The notes beneath the pieces were generated by a model, which worked only from the letters and a program-made list of their open reading frames with translations, made no database searches and was not told the origin of the DNA. Shown here in pieces: positions 7,466 through 32,460 of a stretch of 64,000 nt of DNA (position 1 is the stretch's first letter; each line of letters opens with the position of its first letter). A program made the position numbers and the translations under genes. Source of the DNA: Chitinophagales bacterium (GTDB lineage: Bacteria > Bacteroidota > Bacteroidia > Chitinophagales > JADJOU01); the NCBI GenBank assembly GCA_030832185.1, contig JAURJQ010000010.1, positions 74,896 to 138,895 of the forward strand, in the 5' to 3' direction.

Positions 7466-7572
7466 GTGGTTTTTTTTCAAATCATTTGAATATAGGATAA
7501 GAAACATTCTAATCGGTTACAGAAAAAATCTATTATTAGAATAATTTTATATCCTTCATTTGCATTTTTTTA

Positions 7573-7580
7573 TATCTTTG
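7573..7580 (+). promoter_or_regulatory. -7 box TATCTTTG before the Ig-repeat T9SS gene
   Basis: TATCTTTG matches TAnnTTTG 30 bp before the ATG at 7611. It falls inside the longer frame listed in the ORF track (TTG start 7560), which argues that translation begins at 7611 and not 7560. Confidence 0.5.
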
Positions 7581-7610
7581 CGAATACAATTATATAAATT
7601 CTATCCCAAG

Positions 7611-9896
7611 ATGATTAAAACTATACTTGATGGTAATTTGTTCAGGAAGTCGATTTCTAGTCTGATTTTATGTCTTATTATTTCTAGTGCTGAGTCAGCC
7701 ATAAACGTTATCACGCCACTTCCCGTCAATGTGACAAAATGCGAGGGAGATTCCCTCCTATTAAATATTTCTTTGACTAGTGATAATATAGTAGATTTTG
7801 TATGGAAGCGAAATGGAAGCGTCGTAGGTATGAACAGTTCTAGCTTTGTATTGCCAATAGCTAGCATAGCTGATACTGGAACCTATACATGCGAAATAAA
7901 AGAGCAAGTAACTGGAGCTACCAACATTCAGTCATGCCATGTGACGATAAATTTAAAGCCCAACATTATAACACATCCTTCAGGAAGTTTATCTCCCTTA
8001 TGTGAAGGACGTAACCTAAACTTGAGTGCAAATGTTCAGAATGCTACTATGGTATGGAGAAGAAATAATATAGTGCTATCAACCGGGTCTATGACATACA
8101 ATAAACTCGGAGTAACAATCGCAGATACGGGAGCCTATACTGTTCTAGCAAAGGCCCTTGTAGGTTGTAAAGATACGATTACTAATGCGTTTAATTTTGA
8201 TGTAAAAAGAAGAGCTTTTATCATAGATACTCCGAAAGGAGCAAAATTGAGAGATGCGTCTCTTATGTCACATGTGATGCGCATTAAAGTAGGGGGAGAT
8301 GGACCATTTGCCTATCAGTGGTATAAAGATGGTATACCAATTTCAGGTGCAAACACTGATAGTTTTAAGATTTATTCGTTTACTTCTGCATTGGATTCAG
8401 GTGCATACAGAGTCATAGTCAATACTACTCTTCCGTGTCTTGATACACTGAGAAGTAGACTGTTATTAGTTGAGCCTACGTTGTGCCCTATCCTACTAAA
8501 GCAAACGGATACTTTGCTAAATGCCTGTATGGGCGGACCTGCATTGATGGAGGTAAGTGCATTAGGTGTTTATAAATATCAGTGGTACAAAGTGAGTAAT
8601 ACTGGAATTCAAGATTCACTTGAAGGCGCTATATATAATAGGTTTATCATAGCTAATGCAGATTCAACGACAGCAGGATTCTATAATTTAATAATCACCA
8701 AGGATCCAAGTGTCCAAGGCGATTGTCAAGAAAAAGATCTATTTAAAAGAATCAAGGTGGTTTTAAATCCTCGTCAGGAGGTTACCATGCAGCCATTACC
8801 TAATGAAAATTGTAGTGCTCCATCGCATACTATGATGGTACGCGGTAAACATGCTACAGGTTATCAGTGGTACAAGAATGGAGTCATAATACCAGGAGCT
8901 ACTGATAGCAACTATACAATTAGCCCTCTAACTAATTCTCCAGACGAATATAGAGCTCATGTACGAAATATTTATTGTACCGATGAGCCTTCTAAAACTG
9001 TATTGGTGAGACAGATTAACCCTTCTAACGCAGTAAGATTGGCCATTAGTGATAAACTAGGGCTCATGCAACAGTGCACGGACAATTTGGGTTGGACATA
9101 TTATGCACACGAAGGTAATAAACAAGAACTTTTATTTGCTATAAAAAAGAATGGAAATAACATAGTATTCTCTCCAGATATCAGATTTACAAATGGATTT
9201 ATAAAAGAGTTGGAGCCTGTAGCACCAGAAAAAAAGGTTGTCCTCATGGGATTGAGAATGTTTACCATTAATACACTGGATACAGTAAAAATGCCTTATT
9301 CGGTTAGATTTTTCTACAATGAGGGTCCTTCTGAAAAAGGCTTATTCCTTAGTACTATTCAATCACGTAAAAATGTTTTAGAACGTACCAATGAGTTCTC
9401 TACTGATTTACCTCTTGATCAGTTGTCTTTTGTCGTCTCTACACAAGAATCAATGACGAGCCCTTTAATTCTTTCCCAAACTAAAGCACCTATTAGCTTT
9501 CCTTATCAGGTAGTTAATGACAAGGAAATGGGTACACTTAACAGCGTAGCTTATGTTCAAATAAATAATTTGGTATCTTCCAAAGGTGGAGGTACATTCT
9601 ACTTCCATTACAATCGCAAGGCTGGTAGCGGCATATCAGATGTAAAAAATGCTAATTTTGAGCTATTTCCTGTGCCTTCTGATGGTCGAATGACCTTAAA
9701 AATAAAGGAGGCTAGTAAGTCAGATATTCAAATTAAGGTTATTGATTTGCTAGGAAAAGAAGTAAAACAAATTACAATCAATAAATTTGAAACTACGAAA
9801 GATATTGACTGTTCTGAGTTGCCAATCGGAAATTATATACTCCATTTGGATAATGGATCAGAGCAAGTCAACAAGAAAATGACTATTGCAAGATAG
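7611..9896 (+). CDS. Secreted Ig-like repeat protein with type A T9SS sorting domain
   Basis: A 761-residue protein from the ATG at 7611; the track's TTG at 7560 lies upstream of the promoter box. A signal peptide (FRKSISSLILCLIISSAESA) is followed by at least four Ig-like units. Each carries a YQWYKDG-type or VWKRNG-type core and a DTGTYTCEI / DSGAYRVIV type strand with paired cysteines, up to about residue 480. A less typical region follows. The last ~75 residues are a type A T9SS sorting domain: LFPVPSDGRMTLKIKEA, then VIDLLGKEVKQI, ending LPIGNYILHLDNG and KKMTIAR. The protein should cross the outer membrane through T9SS and be anchored or released with loss of the domain. Function is unknown; adhesion is a guess. 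A terminator follows at 9927. Confidence 0.9.
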   Translation: MIKTILDGNLFRKSISSLILCLIISSAESAINVITPLPVNVTKCEGDSLLLNISLTSDNIVDFVWKRNGSVVGMNSSSFVLPIASIADTGTYTCEIKEQVTGATNIQSCHVTINLKPNIITHPSGSLSPLCEGRNLNLSANVQNATMVWRRNNIVLSTGSMTYNKLGVTIADTGAYTVLAKALVGCKDTITNAFNFDVKRRAFIIDTPKGAKLRDASLMSHVMRIKVGGDGPFAYQWYKDGIPISGANTDSFKIYSFTSALDSGAYRVIVNTTLPCLDTLRSRLLLVEPTLCPILLKQTDTLLNACMGGPALMEVSALGVYKYQWYKVSNTGIQDSLEGAIYNRFIIANADSTTAGFYNLIITKDPSVQGDCQEKDLFKRIKVVLNPRQEVTMQPLPNENCSAPSHTMMVRGKHATGYQWYKNGVIIPGATDSNYTISPLTNSPDEYRAHVRNIYCTDEPSKTVLVRQINPSNAVRLAISDKLGLMQQCTDNLGWTYYAHEGNKQELLFAIKKNGNNIVFSPDIRFTNGFIKELEPVAPEKKVVLMGLRMFTINTLDTVKMPYSVRFFYNEGPSEKGLFLSTIQSRKNVLERTNEFSTDLPLDQLSFVVSTQESMTSPLILSQTKAPISFPYQVVNDKEMGTLNSVAYVQINNLVSSKGGGTFYFHYNRKAGSGISDVKNANFELFPVPSDGRMTLKIKEASKSDIQIKVIDLLGKEVKQITINKFETTKDIDCSELPIGNYILHLDNGSEQVNKKMTIAR

Positions 9897-19017: not shown

Positions 19018-19977
19018 TCAAAGTGCTTTAATGGCTGCTTTGATGGCTGCTTCTGTTGATTCTGCGGGATTAGCAGAAGTTGTATAGTCTGCTGTTAAAG
19101 TAATATTAGGTTTGACTTCTAGATAGTGTTTGTTGTCTTTTTTGGAAACTATAACTATTGTGACGTTTAATCCTATTGGCGCAGTTGCATGATTGATGAA
19201 AAATGTTTGATTAGTCTTGTCAAATCCTTCCAATTTGATTACCGAATTAATTGATTTGAAATAGACATATATCTGTGTATTGATATGGTCAAATCCTTGA
19301 GGTGTTTTTACTTTGATTTCAGTTCTTGGTGAAGTTGAGTCATAATATCTATCACAGTTGAAGTATCCGAATGATTCAAATCCAAAGCTATAATTATAAT
19401 CTAGGTAAATTGTATCTAAGTCCTGTCTTACTGTATCCTTGACAATTTCCCAGTTGATTATGGTATCTCCTTGAATAGTATCACTGGCCTTTATATTTCC
19501 TCTAAAGAGATTCATTTCCGTTGAGTTCTGAGAAGTAGGAATCTTTGCCAATGGTTTTGCATCTTGATTAATAAGTAGCTGAGCATTATTAAAAGTTGCA
19601 TTAATAAAGAATTGGCCTCCAGAGATTAGAATTTTGCCATTTGATGTCGTTGTCTTGCCTGCTAATAGCATTTCTGGTCCAGTGAGCATTTCTTGAAGAA
19701 CTACCGTTACAGATCCCGAAGTTAAAATGGTCCCATCTTTCTTTTTGAAAGAATTAGGGTAGAAAGTTATATTCGTTCCTTTTTCTCCCACAATTGTTTT
19801 CAATTGACCCGCAGGAATAGAAAAACTTTGCATAGGTGGGCCTATGTTTTTAAATAAATCAGTCAAGGTGGATTGTTTCTTTGAAGAGCTGATTGCTTGC
19901 ACATCTTCCTTATAGCAACCTAAAATAGCGAAAAGTGATAAAATGATGACGACGTTTAATTTGATTTGCTTTTTCAT
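19018..19977 (-). CDS. Lipoprotein of unknown function
   Basis: A 319-residue protein with a lipobox signal peptide (IILSLFAILGC, cysteine about residue 21). The mature part begins with a low-complexity stretch and then FSIPAGQLKTIVGEKGTNITFYPNSF, with GSVTVVLQEMLTGPEMLLAGKTT and ILISGGQFFINATFN. This rhythm (glycine-bounded strands ending in a 'sGGqffi.A' turn) recalls the ZU5-like beta-sandwich repeats of many Bacteroidota surface lipoproteins, but that is a loose likeness. The mid part, LDYNYSFGFESFGYFNCDRYY, is reminiscent of the same group. No catalytic motif. Single gene with its own terminator. Confidence 0.75.
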   Translation of the reverse strand: MKKQIKLNVVIILSLFAILGCYKEDVQAISSSKKQSTLTDLFKNIGPPMQSFSIPAGQLKTIVGEKGTNITFYPNSFKKKDGTILTSGSVTVVLQEMLTGPEMLLAGKTTTSNGKILISGGQFFINATFNNAQLLINQDAKPLAKIPTSQNSTEMNLFRGNIKASDTIQGDTIINWEIVKDTVRQDLDTIYLDYNYSFGFESFGYFNCDRYYDSTSPRTEIKVKTPQGFDHINTQIYVYFKSINSVIKLEGFDKTNQTFFINHATAPIGLNVTIVIVSKKDNKHYLEVKPNITLTADYTTSANPAESTEAAIKAAIKAL

Positions 19978-20149: not shown

Positions 20150-23100
20150 ATGAAATTAACTATTTCTCTCCTTCTTCTATGCAGTGGCTTGGTATCTCAA
20201 ACCTTCCAATCTCCCACCAACCCCTATTTCTGGAAAAATAAACTAGGCTCTAAGAGTGAATATTGGCAGCAGGATGTGGATTATACAATCAATGCTAAAT
20301 TAGACGAGAAAGAAGAGATTATCTCTGGAAAAGTAGAAATAATTTATACGAATAATTCGCCGCATGCGCTCAATGAATTATTTTTCAATCTATATCAAAA
20401 TGCATTTATAAAAGAATCCTATCTCTCTGATCTGCAAGAAGCGAATGGCAATAAAGTACGATTTGGCAAATGGGAAGAGGCTGGAAAAGGAAATGAGATA
20501 CTTTCATTAAAAGTAGATGGAGAAATCGTCAAGACAGAAATCGATGGTTCCATTATGAAAGCTTGGCTCAAAAAACCAATGCAACCCAATACAAATATAA
20601 AGATTGAAATCGGTTTTAAAACCTACTACAGTAAAGGAGGTGATACACGACGTAGGATGAAGTCCTATATCTACCAAGGATTAAAGCATTTCAATGGAGC
20701 TCATTGGTATCCGCGCTTAGCAGTTTATGATAGAAAATTTGGATGGTGTACCGATCAGCATTTAAATAGAGAATTTTATGGAGATTTCGGGAATTATAGA
20801 GTACATCTTGATTTTCCAGCGAACTACGTGGTAGAAGCTACTGGACTTCTACAAAATAGATCAGAGGTGCTCCCAGATACGTTAAGAAAGAAGCTAGATA
20901 TCTCCAATTATTGGAATCATCCTTGGGATACCATAGTTACCTATAATATTCCTATGAAAAAGGGAGAGCGAAAGGTTTGGAAATATTTTGCCGAGAATGT
21001 GCATGATTTTGCTTGGGTGGCAGGCCCACATTATCGTTTAGATGAAAAAAATTACAAAGGATTTAGCACTGTTGCCCTTGTTTTAGAACCTCACTGTAGT
21101 GGATGGAAAAATGCCTGCGATTTTTCAGCTAAAGTTATCAATGTGTATAGCAAAGATTTCGGTCAATTCGCTTATCCTAAAATGGTGGTAGCAGATTGTC
21201 AGGATGGAATGGAATATCCTATGCTCACTATGGACGGTGGTTCAGATCCTGGATATCGAGGATTATTGGCTCATGAAATAGGGCATAATTGGTTCTATGG
21301 GATGGTGAATAATAATGAAACCTATAGAGCATTATTGGATGAGGGATTTACGCAGTTTTTGACTGTATGGGCATTAGAAGCAATTGATGGAAAAAATATG
21401 TTCACTTCTGGAAAGCAGCCTAAGTATTTCATGCCAGCCGCTACCCGCAATGCCCGCTGCTATGACAGCTATATGCTCGATGCGATGAACCGTGATAAAA
21501 CTGAAATCAATGTGCATAGTGATGGCTTCAACGGCGCATTGGGACAAGGCGGCGGTTATCGAAGTGTATATAATAAAACGGCAACTATGCTTTACAATTT
21601 GCAGTATGTTTTAGGGGATAGTCTCTTTCAGCGAGCTATGAAGCATTATTTCAACCAATGGTCATTCAGACATCCATATGTAGAAGATTTTAGAAATTCA
21701 ATCATAGAATACACTAAGGTAGATTTGAATTGGTTTTTTGACCAATGGATAGAAACTTCTAAGGTGATAGATTATAAGATTTTCCCTTTAAAAAAAGCTG
21801 ATAGTGGACAATATCTGCTAAAGCTAAAGCGAAAAGCGGAAATGCAGTCACCATTAGACATTACTGTAGTAGGCGAGAGTGGTAAGCGGTATAATTTTTA
21901 TGTGCCCAATACATGGTTTGAAAAAGAGACAGAAGCCACCAAACTGCCGCGCTGGATAGGCTGGGACAATAAATTGAAGACGATATATACCACAAAAATT
22001 AATCTACCAGAGCCGCCTAAGTATGCGAGAATAGACACGAGTGGGAGATTAGCGGATATCAATGAATTGAACAATACAACTGCGTGTGCATGGAATTTAT
22101 TTTTTGATAGAAAAAATTCTCCACCTCGCGATAGACAGAATTATACAGTGTTATGGCGACCTGATTTTTGGTATAATAATTTTGATGGAATAAAAGCAGG
22201 AGCTCATTTTGAAGGCAGTTTGAATCGGAACTTTCATAATACAGAGCTCGATGTATGGATCAACACAAGGATAGGAAAGTGGAGTGTCCGCGATGCGGTT
22301 AATATCAATAGTCGTAATGCAGTGAATGATTTAGTATCTTTTCGATTTAGCTATCAATCTCCTACCCATAAGTTTATCAAAAACAGTGATGTGCGCTTGG
22401 AGGCAAGGCATATCGATGGGATTGCTTTAACTTCTCTTCGATGGAGAAAATCGTTTGAAAATTCTAATTATCTAACAATAGGAGGTAAGTCTATGCTGCG
22501 ATATAGAGGAGATCAAGACTATTATAATTACATGACTTCCATTCAGTGGAATCAGGCTTTGATGGCTAATACAAGTCTATGGCTAGAGTGGTTAAATAAC
22601 AAAAGTTTAGATCAAAATGTGGAACAAACCACAAGAGTTAAACTTCGTTCTTCTATCTTGTCCGTTGCGAATTATAGTTATCTCGAAGCTGAGCATAAGG
22701 AAACTATTAAACTGGATAAATTACTTTTTAAATGGAGATTTTTTGGAAGACTAGGAGCACACCAGACTACATTTATTCCTACGGAGGTACTCTTAAATGC
22801 TGGAGGTGCTAGCGGTGAAGAAATGCTTGAGAATAAGTTTATGCGGAGTGTTTCACCATTCCCAGATGTATTTACTAAAGGCAGTTTGTCGTCTTTATCG
22901 CAGGAGTTCTCTCATTTGCATTATGGCGGAGGTATTAATTTAAGAGGCTATTCATTTCGAAATATATTAGGAACAGGCTTAAATCAATATCAAATCTTTA
23001 ATCAAAATTCTGGCTTTTCATTGAATACTCAATTGAACTTTGAAAATATTTCTCCTATTAAGTTCCGCCAATTAGCTCGTACAATCGGGATAAATTTTTA

Positions 23101-23344
23101 TGTATTCGGCGATGTTGGCAGTCTCTCTAATTTTGATATGCCTAGTTTTTCCATAAATAAAGCACCAATATTAGCTGATGCAGGTTTCGGAACGGCATTA
23201 ACATGGAAAAAAGGAATCAAGTATCTAGGATTAGGGCCAATGACTTTCCGATTCGATATGCCATTCTATCTTTCACATCCTGCATTTGGTGAGCTGGAAC
23301 AATTTCAGTTTAGATGGCTAGTGGGAGTGGAACAGGCGTTTTAA
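20150..23344 (+). CDS. M1-family metallopeptidase fused to a predicted outer-membrane barrel
   Basis: A 1064-residue protein. After a signal peptide (about residues 1-17) comes the aminopeptidase N-like beta domain, then the catalytic domain with DGMEYPMLTMDGG near 353 (the exopeptidase loop) and the zinc site HEIGH (375-379), whose third ligand E398 lies 18 residues on in LLDEGF. VYNKTATMLYNL is also typical. After residue ~640 the M1 part ends. The last ~400 residues are alternating, aromatic-bounded beta strands, with GGGINLRGYSFRN (as in Omp85-type barrels) and an aromatic C-terminus (GVEQAF). This suggests a peptidase tethered to its own barrel. The zinc peptidase call is firm; the barrel is inference from pattern. 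Confidence 0.9.
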   Translation: MKLTISLLLLCSGLVSQTFQSPTNPYFWKNKLGSKSEYWQQDVDYTINAKLDEKEEIISGKVEIIYTNNSPHALNELFFNLYQNAFIKESYLSDLQEANGNKVRFGKWEEAGKGNEILSLKVDGEIVKTEIDGSIMKAWLKKPMQPNTNIKIEIGFKTYYSKGGDTRRRMKSYIYQGLKHFNGAHWYPRLAVYDRKFGWCTDQHLNREFYGDFGNYRVHLDFPANYVVEATGLLQNRSEVLPDTLRKKLDISNYWNHPWDTIVTYNIPMKKGERKVWKYFAENVHDFAWVAGPHYRLDEKNYKGFSTVALVLEPHCSGWKNACDFSAKVINVYSKDFGQFAYPKMVVADCQDGMEYPMLTMDGGSDPGYRGLLAHEIGHNWFYGMVNNNETYRALLDEGFTQFLTVWALEAIDGKNMFTSGKQPKYFMPAATRNARCYDSYMLDAMNRDKTEINVHSDGFNGALGQGGGYRSVYNKTATMLYNLQYVLGDSLFQRAMKHYFNQWSFRHPYVEDFRNSIIEYTKVDLNWFFDQWIETSKVIDYKIFPLKKADSGQYLLKLKRKAEMQSPLDITVVGESGKRYNFYVPNTWFEKETEATKLPRWIGWDNKLKTIYTTKINLPEPPKYARIDTSGRLADINELNNTTACAWNLFFDRKNSPPRDRQNYTVLWRPDFWYNNFDGIKAGAHFEGSLNRNFHNTELDVWINTRIGKWSVRDAVNINSRNAVNDLVSFRFSYQSPTHKFIKNSDVRLEARHIDGIALTSLRWRKSFENSNYLTIGGKSMLRYRGDQDYYNYMTSIQWNQALMANTSLWLEWLNNKSLDQNVEQTTRVKLRSSILSVANYSYLEAEHKETIKLDKLLFKWRFFGRLGAHQTTFIPTEVLLNAGGASGEEMLENKFMRSVSPFPDVFTKGSLSSLSQEFSHLHYGGGINLRGYSFRNILGTGLNQYQIFNQNSGFSLNTQLNFENISPIKFRQLARTIGINFYVFGDVGSLSNFDMPSFSINKAPILADAGFGTALTWKKGIKYLGLGPMTFRFDMPFYLSHPAFGELEQFQFRWLVGVEQAF

Positions 23345-23345
23345 T

Positions 23346-24545
23346 CTAGTTTTTGTCTCTTGTTTTCAATAAACTATCTGCTAAATAGGCATATTGTTCT
23401 ATAGAATTATAAAGCTGTGCTGAAATTCTAAAATACTGCTTTGGTGCTTGTGGAAAAAAGAAACAAGGCACTTCTATCTTATACTGATCATAGAGAATAT
23501 TCTTCACTTCTGTATAGTAATTAAAATTAGTCGATGGGATTTTATCATCCCAGAGGGGTATAGTGACTATATTTCCTAGCATAGATTTTGGTACGGGCAA
23601 ATCTACTTCTAGTTTTTCAGCTAATAAAGTAGCACCTTCCAATGCGAGTGATTTGTTTCGTTTTTTTATTTCGTCCCAACCGCCGCTTACCAATGATGGT
23701 AGATATTCTAGAGCATCCTTTATACATAAATATGCACTATAATCTTTGGTACCTTCCCAGATAAATTGATTGGACCAATGTGCTTCATGATCTGTATCCC
23801 AGTCGTTGTAAAAACTATAAAAGACAGGCTTGAATTCTTTCTGGTTTTTTGGATGCACATATACAAATGCAGACCCTTTGGGCGAGCATATCCATTTATG
23901 GCAATTGGCGACAAAATAATCTGCACCCAATTCATCTAAAACAAAATCGACCATGCCTGGAGCATGAGCGGCGTCTACTATCACTCGTATACCTTTGCTT
24001 TGCAATAATTCTATGATTTTTTTGATAGGGAATATAATGCCTGTAGCCGAAGAAATATAATCTATCATCGCTATGGATGTGCGAGGACCAATGCCATCCT
24101 GTATCACTTCTAATATTTGACTTTCATCATGAAGTGGAAAGGGGATATTTACTTTGATGATTTCATTTCCTTTGCGCTCCCCAATCTTATGAAATGCATG
24201 CAGACAGGCTCCATACCCATGATTAGTAGTGAGCCATTGCTTTTTAGTTTCATTTATATTATGCAAAATATGATTTATGCCGATGGTGGTGTTTGGCACC
24301 ATATAGATATTGTGTTCACTCGTTCCTATGAATTCAGCCAGAGCTTTTTTATTGGCATAATACAATGGATACCATTGGCGAACAGAGAAATCTACAGGCT
24401 CACTTTCCAGTAAATCTATATACTCTTTTTGTTTTTCGGTTATAAATTTAGGATTGGCGCCAAATGAACCATGGTTGAGAAATACGATATCTTTTCGTAA
24501 ATTCCAATACTGAGAAAAAGAAGAAGGCTTAGGGAGAGATGACAT
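23346..24545 (-). CDS. Aminotransferase class V-fold PLP enzyme (isopenicillin N epimerase-like)
   Basis: A 399-residue protein with the class V fold. FLNHGSFGANP lies near the N-terminus, IVDAAHAPGMVDF carries the aspartate that binds the pyridine nitrogen and VANCHKWICSPKGSAF has the PLP-binding lysine. FFFPQAPKQYFRISAQLYN closes the small domain. This sub-group is usually named isopenicillin N epimerase-like or cysteine desulfurase-like; actual reactions vary, and no antibiotic role should be inferred. It lies 14 bp after the glycosyltransferase gene on the same strand and meets the M1 peptidase gene tail to tail with one base between stops. Confidence 0.9.
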   Translation of the reverse strand: MSSLPKPSSFSQYWNLRKDIVFLNHGSFGANPKFITEKQKEYIDLLESEPVDFSVRQWYPLYYANKKALAEFIGTSEHNIYMVPNTTIGINHILHNINETKKQWLTTNHGYGACLHAFHKIGERKGNEIIKVNIPFPLHDESQILEVIQDGIGPRTSIAMIDYISSATGIIFPIKKIIELLQSKGIRVIVDAAHAPGMVDFVLDELGADYFVANCHKWICSPKGSAFVYVHPKNQKEFKPVFYSFYNDWDTDHEAHWSNQFIWEGTKDYSAYLCIKDALEYLPSLVSGGWDEIKKRNKSLALEGATLLAEKLEVDLPVPKSMLGNIVTIPLWDDKIPSTNFNYYTEVKNILYDQYKIEVPCFFFPQAPKQYFRISAQLYNSIEQYAYLADSLLKTRDKN

Positions 24546-29694: not shown

Positions 29695-32460
29695 ATGATA
29701 ATTCGTTTCGTACTAATTACCTTTTTAGTTTGGAAAATTGGAGAAATTCAATCCCAGAATAACTGCGAAAATCACATACAGGTGTGTGGGAATCAATCTA
29801 TTAGCTTAAACGTGTCAGGAGGGGGTAGTCAAGAAATTAGCAATAGTAGTTGGTGTTTTTTTCAAGAGAATAATTCCTTATGGCTCAGATTTACCATACT
29901 TACAGGGGGTACATTAGGTTTTAATTTAATTCCATCTAGTACGAGTATTGTAGAAGATTATGATTTCATGGTCTTTGGTCCAAATGTGACCTGCACTGCT
30001 AAAGGGTCACCTATACGTTGCAGTTCCACCAATCCCCAAGCATCTGGGTCTGCAAATAATCACACAGGAATGAGAGCTTCTAGTACAGATGTATCAGAGG
30101 GACCGGGAAATTTAGGAGATAATTGGGTGAATTGGTTAAACGTTTCAGCTGGAGAAAGCTATTTTTTACTAATAGATAGACCCTTGGGCAATTCGGCCTT
30201 TACTCTAAACTGGACAGGATCAGCAGTTTTGAAAAAAACAAATGCTGGTCCAGATATAAGTCTATGCATAGGAAAAACAGCGACTATGGCTGCCACAGAG
30301 ACAGGTAACTGGGTGCAGCATTCAACCAATCCGGCTTCGGCCACATTTTCATCCCTAACCAACCCTAATGCGACTGTTTCGGGATTGAACACAGTAGGTA
30401 TTTATCGATTTACTTGGAGTTCGCTGGGTTGTGCGGATACTATGCAGATTATGGTGAATAATACATCTAATTCCAGTGAGAATAAATCTATCTGTCAGGG
30501 ACAGAGTTATCGGGGACATTCTTCAACGGGTGTTTATTCGGATACTTTGAAAAATAAGGCAGGTTGCGATAGTATCATTACCTTGACTTTGACTGTGAAA
30601 AATCATCGCTCGTCTACTATAAATAAATCAATCTGTCAAGGAGAAAACTTTTTAGGATATACTACCAGCGGTACTTATGTCGATAAATTAGTAAGTGCGA
30701 ATGGATGCGATAGTTTGAGAACTTTAAACTTATTAGTGAATCCTGCACATGCTCCTACAATAAATAAGAGTATTTGTGATGGCGAGAGTTTTATGGGAAA
30801 ATCTTCAACAGGTACCTACACTTTTAATTATAAGAATAGCTATGGCTGTGATAGTATCATTACATTAAATCTTAAAGTAAATAATTATTCCAATGTCATC
30901 ATCAATACGGCTATTTGTCAAGGGCAATCGTATAACGGTAAGACTGCAGCTGGAACTTATAAGGATAGCTTCAAGAGTATAGAGGGTTGTGATAGTATTC
31001 GTACTTTAAATTTAACCGTAAATCAGCATAGTCTAAGTACTATTTATGATACTATATGTCAAGGTCAAACTTCAGGTGGACATAGCACGACAGGCACTTT
31101 CTTAGATATACTAAGGAATTCAAAAAACTGCGATAGCACTCGTACCCTGCATCTCGTGGTGAAGCCTAATTCATTTTTTACGGTTAATAAAAAAATCTGT
31201 GAGGGGCAATCATTTCTCGGCAGATCGGTTTCGGGAAGTTATTCTGATAAATTTCTAAGTGCCAATGGTTGTGATAGCGCACGAACGCTTCTTCTATGGG
31301 TTTCAAAAAAGCAAACCATCTCTATATCTAAGAAAATCTGTGAGGGGGAAAGCTTTATGGGCAGAAATCAGACGGGTTTTTACATTGATACCCTCAGAAA
31401 TGATATTGGTTGCGATAGCATCATTACCCTTTTGAATCTTAATGTGATATCTAAAGATTCTTTCCTCCAGAAAACAATCTGTGAAGGGGAGAACTTTCTA
31501 GGCTATGATTCTACAGGAATTTATTTCGATAATATTGTAGACGAAAATGGTTGTCCTCGATTGAGAAGACTCGACTTAACAGAAAATCCTATTACCTTTG
31601 GTAGTGAGATTAAAATTATCTGCTTCGGGGATTCTTATAAAGGAAAAGCTAGGACGGGGAAATACTCGATAAAGTACAAGAATGTCAAAGGTTGTGATAG
31701 CTTCTTTAGTTTGGATTTGACGGTAAAGCCAGATTTTTTAGCTAAAACACTTCGCGATACAAATACCTGCACTGGAAATCCGATAGTCCTCAATGTCAAG
31801 GGCGGTTATAAGGCTTATGCATGGAGTGATGGAGTGATGGATTCTATTCGCAGTGTTTTGAACTCTGGAAAATACACAGTTACAGTCACTAACATTGATG
31901 ATTGCTTATCAACCGATGATGCCAAAGTGTTTTTTTATCCTGTCCCTGAAGTTGAGATAGGTGAAGACACTATTATTTACGATGGAGAAGTGCTGAGATT
32001 TGAACCTAAAATTTCAGGAAGAATTAATTATAATGGACTTCGCTGGACTCCAAATGATTTGTTTAAATGCGACTCCTGTCTTAAGCAATGGTTAGAAACT
32101 TCAGTGAATACCTTTGTCAAACTTGCATATAGGGATGAATATACTTGCTATAATCAAGATTCCATCAATATAAAAGTATTGCCTGTGCAGAATGTAGGTT
32201 TTCCTACAGCATTTTCGCCCAATGGCGATGGGCTAAATGATTATTTCGAATTGAATGGAGGCCCAGTTCGCACTCTGAATTTATCTATCTATAATCGATG
32301 GGGAGAAAAAGTTTATGATTATGCAGGTAAGACACCAATGTGGGATGGAAAATTTAAGGGAGAACAAGCTCCCACAGGAGTTTACACCTACTTCGTCCGC
32401 TTTAATTTATACAAAGGCGGCATTCAAGAAAAAATGGGAACCCTTACTATTATCCGTTAG
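29695..32460 (+). CDS. T9SS type B (gliding motility-associated C-terminal) repeat protein
   Basis: A 921-residue secreted protein. A signal peptide (about 1-20) and a jelly-roll-like N-terminal domain with GDNWVNWLNVSAGESYFLLIDR come first. An Ig-like piece (GPDISLCIGKTATMAATETGNW) follows, then nine 47-residue repeats from about residue 263, each with ICxGxSFxG, a central GxY and GCDSIxTLxLxV. After two further beta domains the C-terminus is the CHU_C/type B sorting domain: FPTAFSPNGDGLNDYFELNG, SIYNRWGEKVYDY, WDGKFKG and PTGVYTYFVRF. Two cysteines in each repeat probably form disulfides outside the cell. This is a surface or filament protein of unknown binding partner. Promoter is next to the ATG. 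Confidence 0.93.
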   Translation: MIIRFVLITFLVWKIGEIQSQNNCENHIQVCGNQSISLNVSGGGSQEISNSSWCFFQENNSLWLRFTILTGGTLGFNLIPSSTSIVEDYDFMVFGPNVTCTAKGSPIRCSSTNPQASGSANNHTGMRASSTDVSEGPGNLGDNWVNWLNVSAGESYFLLIDRPLGNSAFTLNWTGSAVLKKTNAGPDISLCIGKTATMAATETGNWVQHSTNPASATFSSLTNPNATVSGLNTVGIYRFTWSSLGCADTMQIMVNNTSNSSENKSICQGQSYRGHSSTGVYSDTLKNKAGCDSIITLTLTVKNHRSSTINKSICQGENFLGYTTSGTYVDKLVSANGCDSLRTLNLLVNPAHAPTINKSICDGESFMGKSSTGTYTFNYKNSYGCDSIITLNLKVNNYSNVIINTAICQGQSYNGKTAAGTYKDSFKSIEGCDSIRTLNLTVNQHSLSTIYDTICQGQTSGGHSTTGTFLDILRNSKNCDSTRTLHLVVKPNSFFTVNKKICEGQSFLGRSVSGSYSDKFLSANGCDSARTLLLWVSKKQTISISKKICEGESFMGRNQTGFYIDTLRNDIGCDSIITLLNLNVISKDSFLQKTICEGENFLGYDSTGIYFDNIVDENGCPRLRRLDLTENPITFGSEIKIICFGDSYKGKARTGKYSIKYKNVKGCDSFFSLDLTVKPDFLAKTLRDTNTCTGNPIVLNVKGGYKAYAWSDGVMDSIRSVLNSGKYTVTVTNIDDCLSTDDAKVFFYPVPEVEIGEDTIIYDGEVLRFEPKISGRINYNGLRWTPNDLFKCDSCLKQWLETSVNTFVKLAYRDEYTCYNQDSINIKVLPVQNVGFPTAFSPNGDGLNDYFELNGGPVRTLNLSIYNRWGEKVYDYAGKTPMWDGKFKGEQAPTGVYTYFVRFNLYKGGIQEKMGTLTIIR
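30481..31750 (+). repeat. Nine tandem 141-bp repeats encoding 47-residue Cys-rich units
   Basis: Units begin at (N/S/Y/Q)KxICxG and repeat every 47 residues. The second cysteine sits in GCDS; unit 5 has NCDS, unit 8 has GCPR, and unit 7 carries one extra residue. Unit boundaries at the end are approximate. DNA identity between units is modest, so these are old repeats. Confidence 0.85.

Follow-up and report, generated by a model that had tools for sequence, protein, structure and literature searches.

A conserved Bacteroidota protein that joins an M1 zinc peptidase to a predicted Omp85-type barrel

Can a single protein be both an aminopeptidase and an outer-membrane barrel, and if so, where would the enzyme sit and what would it do? 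A gene from a Chitinophagales bacterium raises this question. It lies in a stretch of 64,000 nucleotides (contig JAURJQ010000010.1 of assembly GCA_030832185.1, positions 74,896 to 138,895), which we call the window. An earlier note, made from the sequence alone, proposed that this gene encodes a zinc M1 peptidase and a barrel-like C-terminus in one chain.

The gene is an uninterrupted open reading frame on the plus strand, from the ATG at 20150 to the stop at 23344, without a frameshift. The reverse strand opposite 20150–23344 has stops throughout and no comparable frame.

20150..23344, plus strand: whole gene of the M1 peptidase-Omp85 barrel fusion, 1064 amino acids (open reading frame; equal length in 45 dereplicated homologues)
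20150..20197, plus strand: signal peptide with probable signal peptidase I (SPI) cleavage before Gln17, MKLTISLLLLCSGLVS followed by QTFQ (sequence; homologue pattern; Q-rule)

As the reference for conservation, we used the 45 dereplicated full-length homologues, which are 41–87% identical to the window protein. By a simple regex pattern, 40 of the 45 have glutamine after an SPI-like site, as expected from the Bacteroidetes Q-rule, under which Gln should lie behind the SPI site (PMC5837995). The flanking genes (19018–19977 and 23346–24545) are both on the minus strand, and the fusion gene stands alone. Comparing the surroundings of the fusion homologues, we found no conserved gene neighbourhood beyond close clades.

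Two other genes in the window encode repetitive proteins. The 921-amino-acid secreted protein at 29695–32460 has about nine repeats of the form SICQGQSYxGxxxTGTYxDxLxxxxGCDSIxTLxLxV and a gliding-motility-type C-terminal domain. The 778-amino-acid protein at 7560–9896 has Ig-like repeats and a C-terminus that resembles a type IX secretion sorting domain.

The first part of the fusion protein has the features of an M1 peptidase:

20273..21103, plus strand: M1 N-terminal beta domain, residues 42–318 (AlphaFold2 strands; Foldseek to IRAP/ERAP1/F3)
21104..21754, plus strand: M1 catalytic (thermolysin-like) domain, residues 319–535 (Pfam PF01433; helices in the AlphaFold2 model)
21206..21217, plus strand: G-M-E-Y, residues 353–356, counterpart of GxMEN (invariant in 45 homologues)
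21272..21343, plus strand: HEIGH-x18-E zinc site with H375, E376, H379 and E398 (invariant in 45 homologues)
21569..21571, plus strand: Tyr474, counterpart of the catalytic Tyr381 of E. coli PepN (phmmer alignment; invariant)
21773..22033, plus strand: small beta-sandwich domain, residues 542–628, at the position of M1 domain III (AlphaFold2)
22034..22141, plus strand: linker, residues 629–664 (AlphaFold2; endpoint of M1-only relatives)

The earlier note's claim of a complete M1 site (HEIGH plus E398) holds up well. Residues 372–533 match Pfam's Peptidase_M1 (PF01433; E = 3e-16, 60.1 bits versus a cut-off of 27.7), as do all 45 homologues, and H375, E376, H379, E398, Y474, and E355 are invariant in all 45. 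In the phmmer alignment of residues 472–539 to 379–445 of the E. coli PepN structure 2dq6, Tyr474 lies opposite position 381, the catalytic tyrosine. Judged by these residues, the M1 catalytic set is intact. The exopeptidase motif GxMEN reads GMEY, with the glutamate retained and the asparagine replaced by tyrosine, so exopeptidase specificity is not assured. A Foldseek search with the full-chain model also matched M1 aminopeptidases (E = 2.5e-23). In the model, M1 domains I–III span about 42–628 and the M1 part ends near 628–635, while the first barrel strand begins at 665; the boundary of about 640 in the earlier note was about right. PepN, ERAP1/IRAP, LTA4H, and the cold-active enzyme 3cia share with the window protein domains I–III, HExxH-x18-E, the catalytic tyrosine, and the glutamate of the exopeptidase motif. 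Unlike them, the window protein has a barrel instead of domain IV, GMEY instead of GxMEN, and a signal peptide.

What is the rest of the chain? The features of the C-terminal part are:

22142..23341, plus strand: predicted 16-strand Omp85-type beta-barrel, residues 665–1064 (two AlphaFold2 runs; Foldseek; hhalign)
22763..23008, plus strand: long loop joining strands 11 and 12, residues 872–953, at the position of Omp85 L6 (AlphaFold2)
22940..22951, plus strand: LRGY, residues 931–934, counterpart of the Omp85 loop motif (V/L)RG(F/Y) (R932 invariant)
23105..23119, plus strand: F-G-D-V-G, residues 986–990, counterpart of Omp85 FxDxG (conservation; profile alignment to TamL)
23306..23341, plus strand: last strand with terminal Phe1064, like a beta-signal (R1055 and F1064 invariant in 45)

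Pfam and NCBIfam scans of residues 640–1064 gave no match, as the models recognise the M1 part only, so the claim of a barrel needed structure, which now supports it. We ran AlphaFold2 on the full chain with the 45-sequence alignment (pLDDT 83.9, pTM 0.81). For a chain of two parts, this pTM suggests that the M1 part and the barrel hold a defined mutual position. Where 12–16 strands had been expected, the model has 16: 665–676, 680–691, 695–705, 729–738, 746–755, 758–768, 773–783, 807–819, 824–835, 842–855, 858–871, 954–964, 979–993, 1008–1019, 1031–1041, and 1057–1060 (the last one is short). Modelling residues 655–1064 alone gave identical strands (pLDDT 81.0, pTM 0.80). The earlier note had considered a soluble beta-sandwich as the alternative; the beta-sandwich in the model is M1 domain III, at 542–628, before the barrel.

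Omp85 proteins have 16 strands, with an RG-motif loop between strands 11 and 12. The GGINLRGY segment that had been pointed out in the sequence (927–934) lies in the loop of about 80 residues that joins strands 11 and 12 of the model. Because M1 matches fill the Foldseek list for the full chain, we modelled and searched the barrel by itself. Against 350,542 PDB chains, the best 50 matches were all Omp85 proteins, including TamA (8us2, E = 4.2e-10), BamA, and the yeast SAM complex (Sam50). The TM-scores were moderate (0.4–0.5 over the query, with rmsd of 6–16 Å), so this is a match at the level of the fold and not a close similarity. Conservation within the family points the same way: R932, F986, D988, and the terminal phenylalanine that had also been noticed, F1064, are invariant in all 45 sequences, G990 is at least 90% conserved, and the LRGY loop is largely kept. 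No POTRA domain was found in the Pfam scan or in the AlphaFold2 model. As modelled, the C-terminus belongs to the Omp85 superfamily as a barrel that lacks POTRA, which goes beyond merely "Omp85-like." TamL/TamA and BamA likewise have 16 strands, RGY in a long loop after strand 11, FxDxG, and a terminal phenylalanine; the window protein differs from them in having no POTRA, no lipid anchor, and an enzyme in front.

Profile comparisons also link the barrel to Omp85. With a barrel profile built from 67 sequences, hhalign gave 89% (E = 2e-6) for TamL-type Omp85 proteins of Bacteroidota, a weak 19% for BamA (aligned over 318 columns), and 0.2% for a control of twenty TonB-receptor proteins. An earlier comparison with a narrow profile was weak (22–43% for TamL and 0.1% for BamA), and the support rose once stand-alone and distant fused barrels entered the profile. 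(In the automatic iterative HMM search, only the first rounds are meaningful, as it strayed into M1 domains once about three rounds had passed.) At the level of profiles, the barrel is homologous to Omp85. Single sequence searches were less telling. Pfam's Omp85 model (PF01103) did not match the window protein; in a search of 41 genomes, it matched two fusion homologues inside their barrels, below the curated cut-off (L024 in G019 at E = 9.9e-4, and L130 in G033 at E = 9.1e-5). The hmmsearch E-values for Omp85 were weak (0.003 and worse) and some reversed decoys reached 0.02, so the fold match weighs more for the assignment. The barrel profile had no hmmsearch match among PDB sequences, which means that sequence alone does not reach the solved Omp85 proteins. 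DUF5686, a barrel of Bacteroidota, was also considered as the closest relative and did not clearly come out as such (18% and 44%).

We also noticed that the genome containing the window (G000, 99% complete) has just one PF01103 match over the cut-off (C26:57726–58217, in a 794-amino-acid frame). Two to seven such matches are present in most of the order's other genomes. The BamA of this genome may be too diverged for the PF01103 model.

Is the fusion real, and how widespread is it? Of 61 genomes from the order, 39 encode the full-length M1-barrel chain; it also occurs at 31 loci of a GTDB-based contig collection, all from Bacteroidota where named. In principle, an assembly or annotation artefact could have merged two genes, and genes for M1 only or for the barrel only do exist elsewhere, but nothing more speaks for this. 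No stop or frameshift breaks the frame, and the identical chain architecture appears in dozens of independent assemblies from two collections. We consider an artefact practically out of the question; the homologues rule it out. The fusion is no chimera and is not confined to one genome, and the single chain proposed in the earlier note is one open reading frame whose architecture is repeated among homologues.

Many genomes of the order carry, besides or instead of the window-type fusion, another M1 clade, whose members have about 1000 amino acids and the motif GGGMEYP (family B; L112–L124 and L131). In hhalign, the C-terminal 380 residues of family B prove homologous to the barrel of the window protein (96%, E = 2e-9), and the family B barrels lack the terminal-Phe ending and a clear RGY loop. 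When the barrel alone was searched across the phylum, 74 of 396 genomes had a match. Among these matches were more distant M1-barrel fusions (such as L161, with 1033 amino acids) and a stand-alone barrel of about 400–470 amino acids, mainly from one family (f44) of another class.

Stand-alone barrels at L152–L160, L164, L166, L167, and L170 (for instance, L154:3745–4983) have no Pfam match. They lie in a conserved gene run with a NUDIX hydrolase, the barrel, acetate kinase (at some of the loci), a lipoprotein, and an EamA-like protein. The lipoprotein carries SH3 and caspase-like (C14) domains, and this partnership of barrel and caspase-lipoprotein is worth a look.

M1-only relatives have 613–820 amino acids. 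The shorter ones (L172–L178) stop right at the linker that would lead into the barrel (...IDPSGRMADV..NN), which suggests that several lineages have lost the barrel cleanly; to go by these sequences, the M1 module can stand alone. In a tree of 54 M1 sequences, whose root depends on long-branched outgroups and in which the positions of L186 and L187 are uncertain, the M1-only forms nest in two groups with fused deeper branches. The simplest reading of the tree is one old fusion followed by at least two losses of the barrel. Mean identity is 29% for the barrel, 35% for the linker, and 63% for the catalytic domain. The barrel thus evolves faster than the enzyme, which fits a role as an anchor.

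Fusions of enzymes to Omp85 barrels are already known, and what is new here is the enzyme. The closest analogues are PlpD from Pseudomonas and FplA from Fusobacterium. These proteins, too, are single chains in which a hydrolase precedes an Omp85 barrel of 16 strands, and their barrel is probably an anchor, as in the window fusion. However, PlpD and FplA have a patatin lipase, with POTRA between the enzyme and the barrel, while the window fusion has a zinc M1 enzyme and no POTRA there. The Pfam scan of the window protein found no patatin domain, and M1 instead. The scan also found no match to PF00149, a metallophosphoesterase family unrelated to M1, and this sets the window protein apart from the Omp85 "Metallo" class. 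That class also has a metal enzyme N-terminal to an Omp85 barrel without POTRA, and it has been termed a metalloprotease, though PF00149 is cited for it (PMC4104836). None of the ten bacterial Omp85 classes of Heinz and Lithgow (2014) has M1, and classes without POTRA are recognised (PMC4104836). The "noNterm" class is a barrel alone and resembles, by architecture, the stand-alone relatives of about 420 amino acids from f44, whereas the window barrel carries M1. In the open-access papers that we searched, no M1-Omp85 chain is described.

Our searches turned up other fused Omp85 barrels. L125:1748–5458 and L129:1686–5501 encode metallophosphoesterase-like proteins of about 1240–1270 amino acids with a PF01103 barrel at the end, probably of the "Metallo" class. 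L126, L127, and L128 (about 880–1170 amino acids) combine propeller-like repeats with an Omp85 barrel (PF01103) at the C-terminus, and the N-terminus of L126 and L127 resembles a gluzincin (MA-clan) peptidase domain that has degenerated and lacks HExxH.

Based on the sequence and the models, we think it quite likely that the window protein is a zinc aminopeptidase that is tethered to the outer membrane, with M1 in the periplasm beneath a 16-strand Omp85-type barrel, and that it trims N-termini. The chain would be exported by Sec, and signal peptidase I would cut the leader before Gln17. BAM would insert the C-terminal 400 residues as a 16-strand Omp85-type barrel. M1 domains I–III would fold in the periplasm immediately beneath the barrel, which would occupy the place of domain IV in soluble M1 enzymes. 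The enzyme would trim N-terminal residues off periplasmic or incoming peptides and unfolded proteins; given M1 chemistry, this is the plain expectation. (We infer the insertion into the outer membrane, the periplasmic orientation, the aminopeptidase activity, and the substrates.)

With an even number of strands, and with LRGY in the loop that joins strand 11 to strand 12, both ends of the barrel would be periplasmic, as in Omp85. Since M1 is N-terminal to a 16-strand barrel, the expected tether is at the periplasmic face. Furthermore, the patatin domain of PlpD, which has the same position before the barrel, was for a long time believed to be exported and was then shown to be exclusively periplasmic (PMC11116518). 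Given Omp85 topology and this precedent, our reading is that the barrel anchors the M1 enzyme at the inner side of the outer membrane, and by analogy the periplasmic side is the most likely one. Given how widely the fusion recurs, bacteria of this phylum probably have such an enzyme tethered at the inner face of their outer membrane.

We also considered that the barrel might export the M1 domain to the surface or the medium, like a type Vd autotransporter, so that external peptides could be digested for nutrition. Free-living Bacteroidota live on peptides, which favours this idea, as does the order of the chain, with the enzyme N-terminal and the barrel C-terminal as in autotransporters. Also, PlpD was first described as an exporter (PMC4104836). 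But this model for export keeps its enzyme domain in the periplasm (PMC11116518), and by fold and profile the window barrel is of the Omp85 type and not the 12-strand domain of autotransporters. A zinc enzyme of 60 kDa in its folded state would be an unlikely passenger, and the linker is so poorly conserved (35% mean identity) that no conserved release site is evident. Export therefore seems unlikely.

Alternatively, the protein could be an outer-membrane biogenesis factor whose barrel assembles or inserts outer-membrane proteins, with M1 acting in quality control or as a periplasmic platform for substrate binding in place of POTRA. With the exception of PlpD, the classically studied Omp85 proteins all work in assembly or translocation (PMC11116518); the LRGY loop, which is important for Omp85 activity, is largely kept; and a stand-alone version of the barrel exists. 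This proposal seems very unlikely to us, as there is no POTRA and we found no conserved neighbourhood with genes for outer-membrane protein assembly around the fusion homologues. Also, the barrel is the least conserved part of the chain (29% versus 63% for the catalytic domain) and was apparently lost in several M1 lineages, which argues for anchoring rather than a central catalytic role.

With the window protein, a peptidase joins the few enzymes that are known to be carried by Omp85 barrels. The architecture of the fusion, found across Bacteroidota, was missed by the Pfam and NCBIfam models that we used, because the M1 model ends before the barrel. The fusion also lends support to an idea that came from PlpD, namely that Omp85 barrels were reused to anchor periplasmic enzymes. 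An N-terminal pyroglutamate "Q-rule" covers most exported proteins of Bacteroidota, and its purpose is unexplained. We speculate, while rating the idea as quite unlikely, that M1-Omp85 is a conserved editor of N-termini at the inner face of the outer membrane, and that pyroglutamate formation in Bacteroidota counters the resulting aminopeptidase pressure. To explain why pyroglutamate formation is essential, the authors of the Q-rule invoked the cell's "own periplasmic proteases" (PMC5837995), and the M1-Omp85 chain would be a concrete candidate for one of these.
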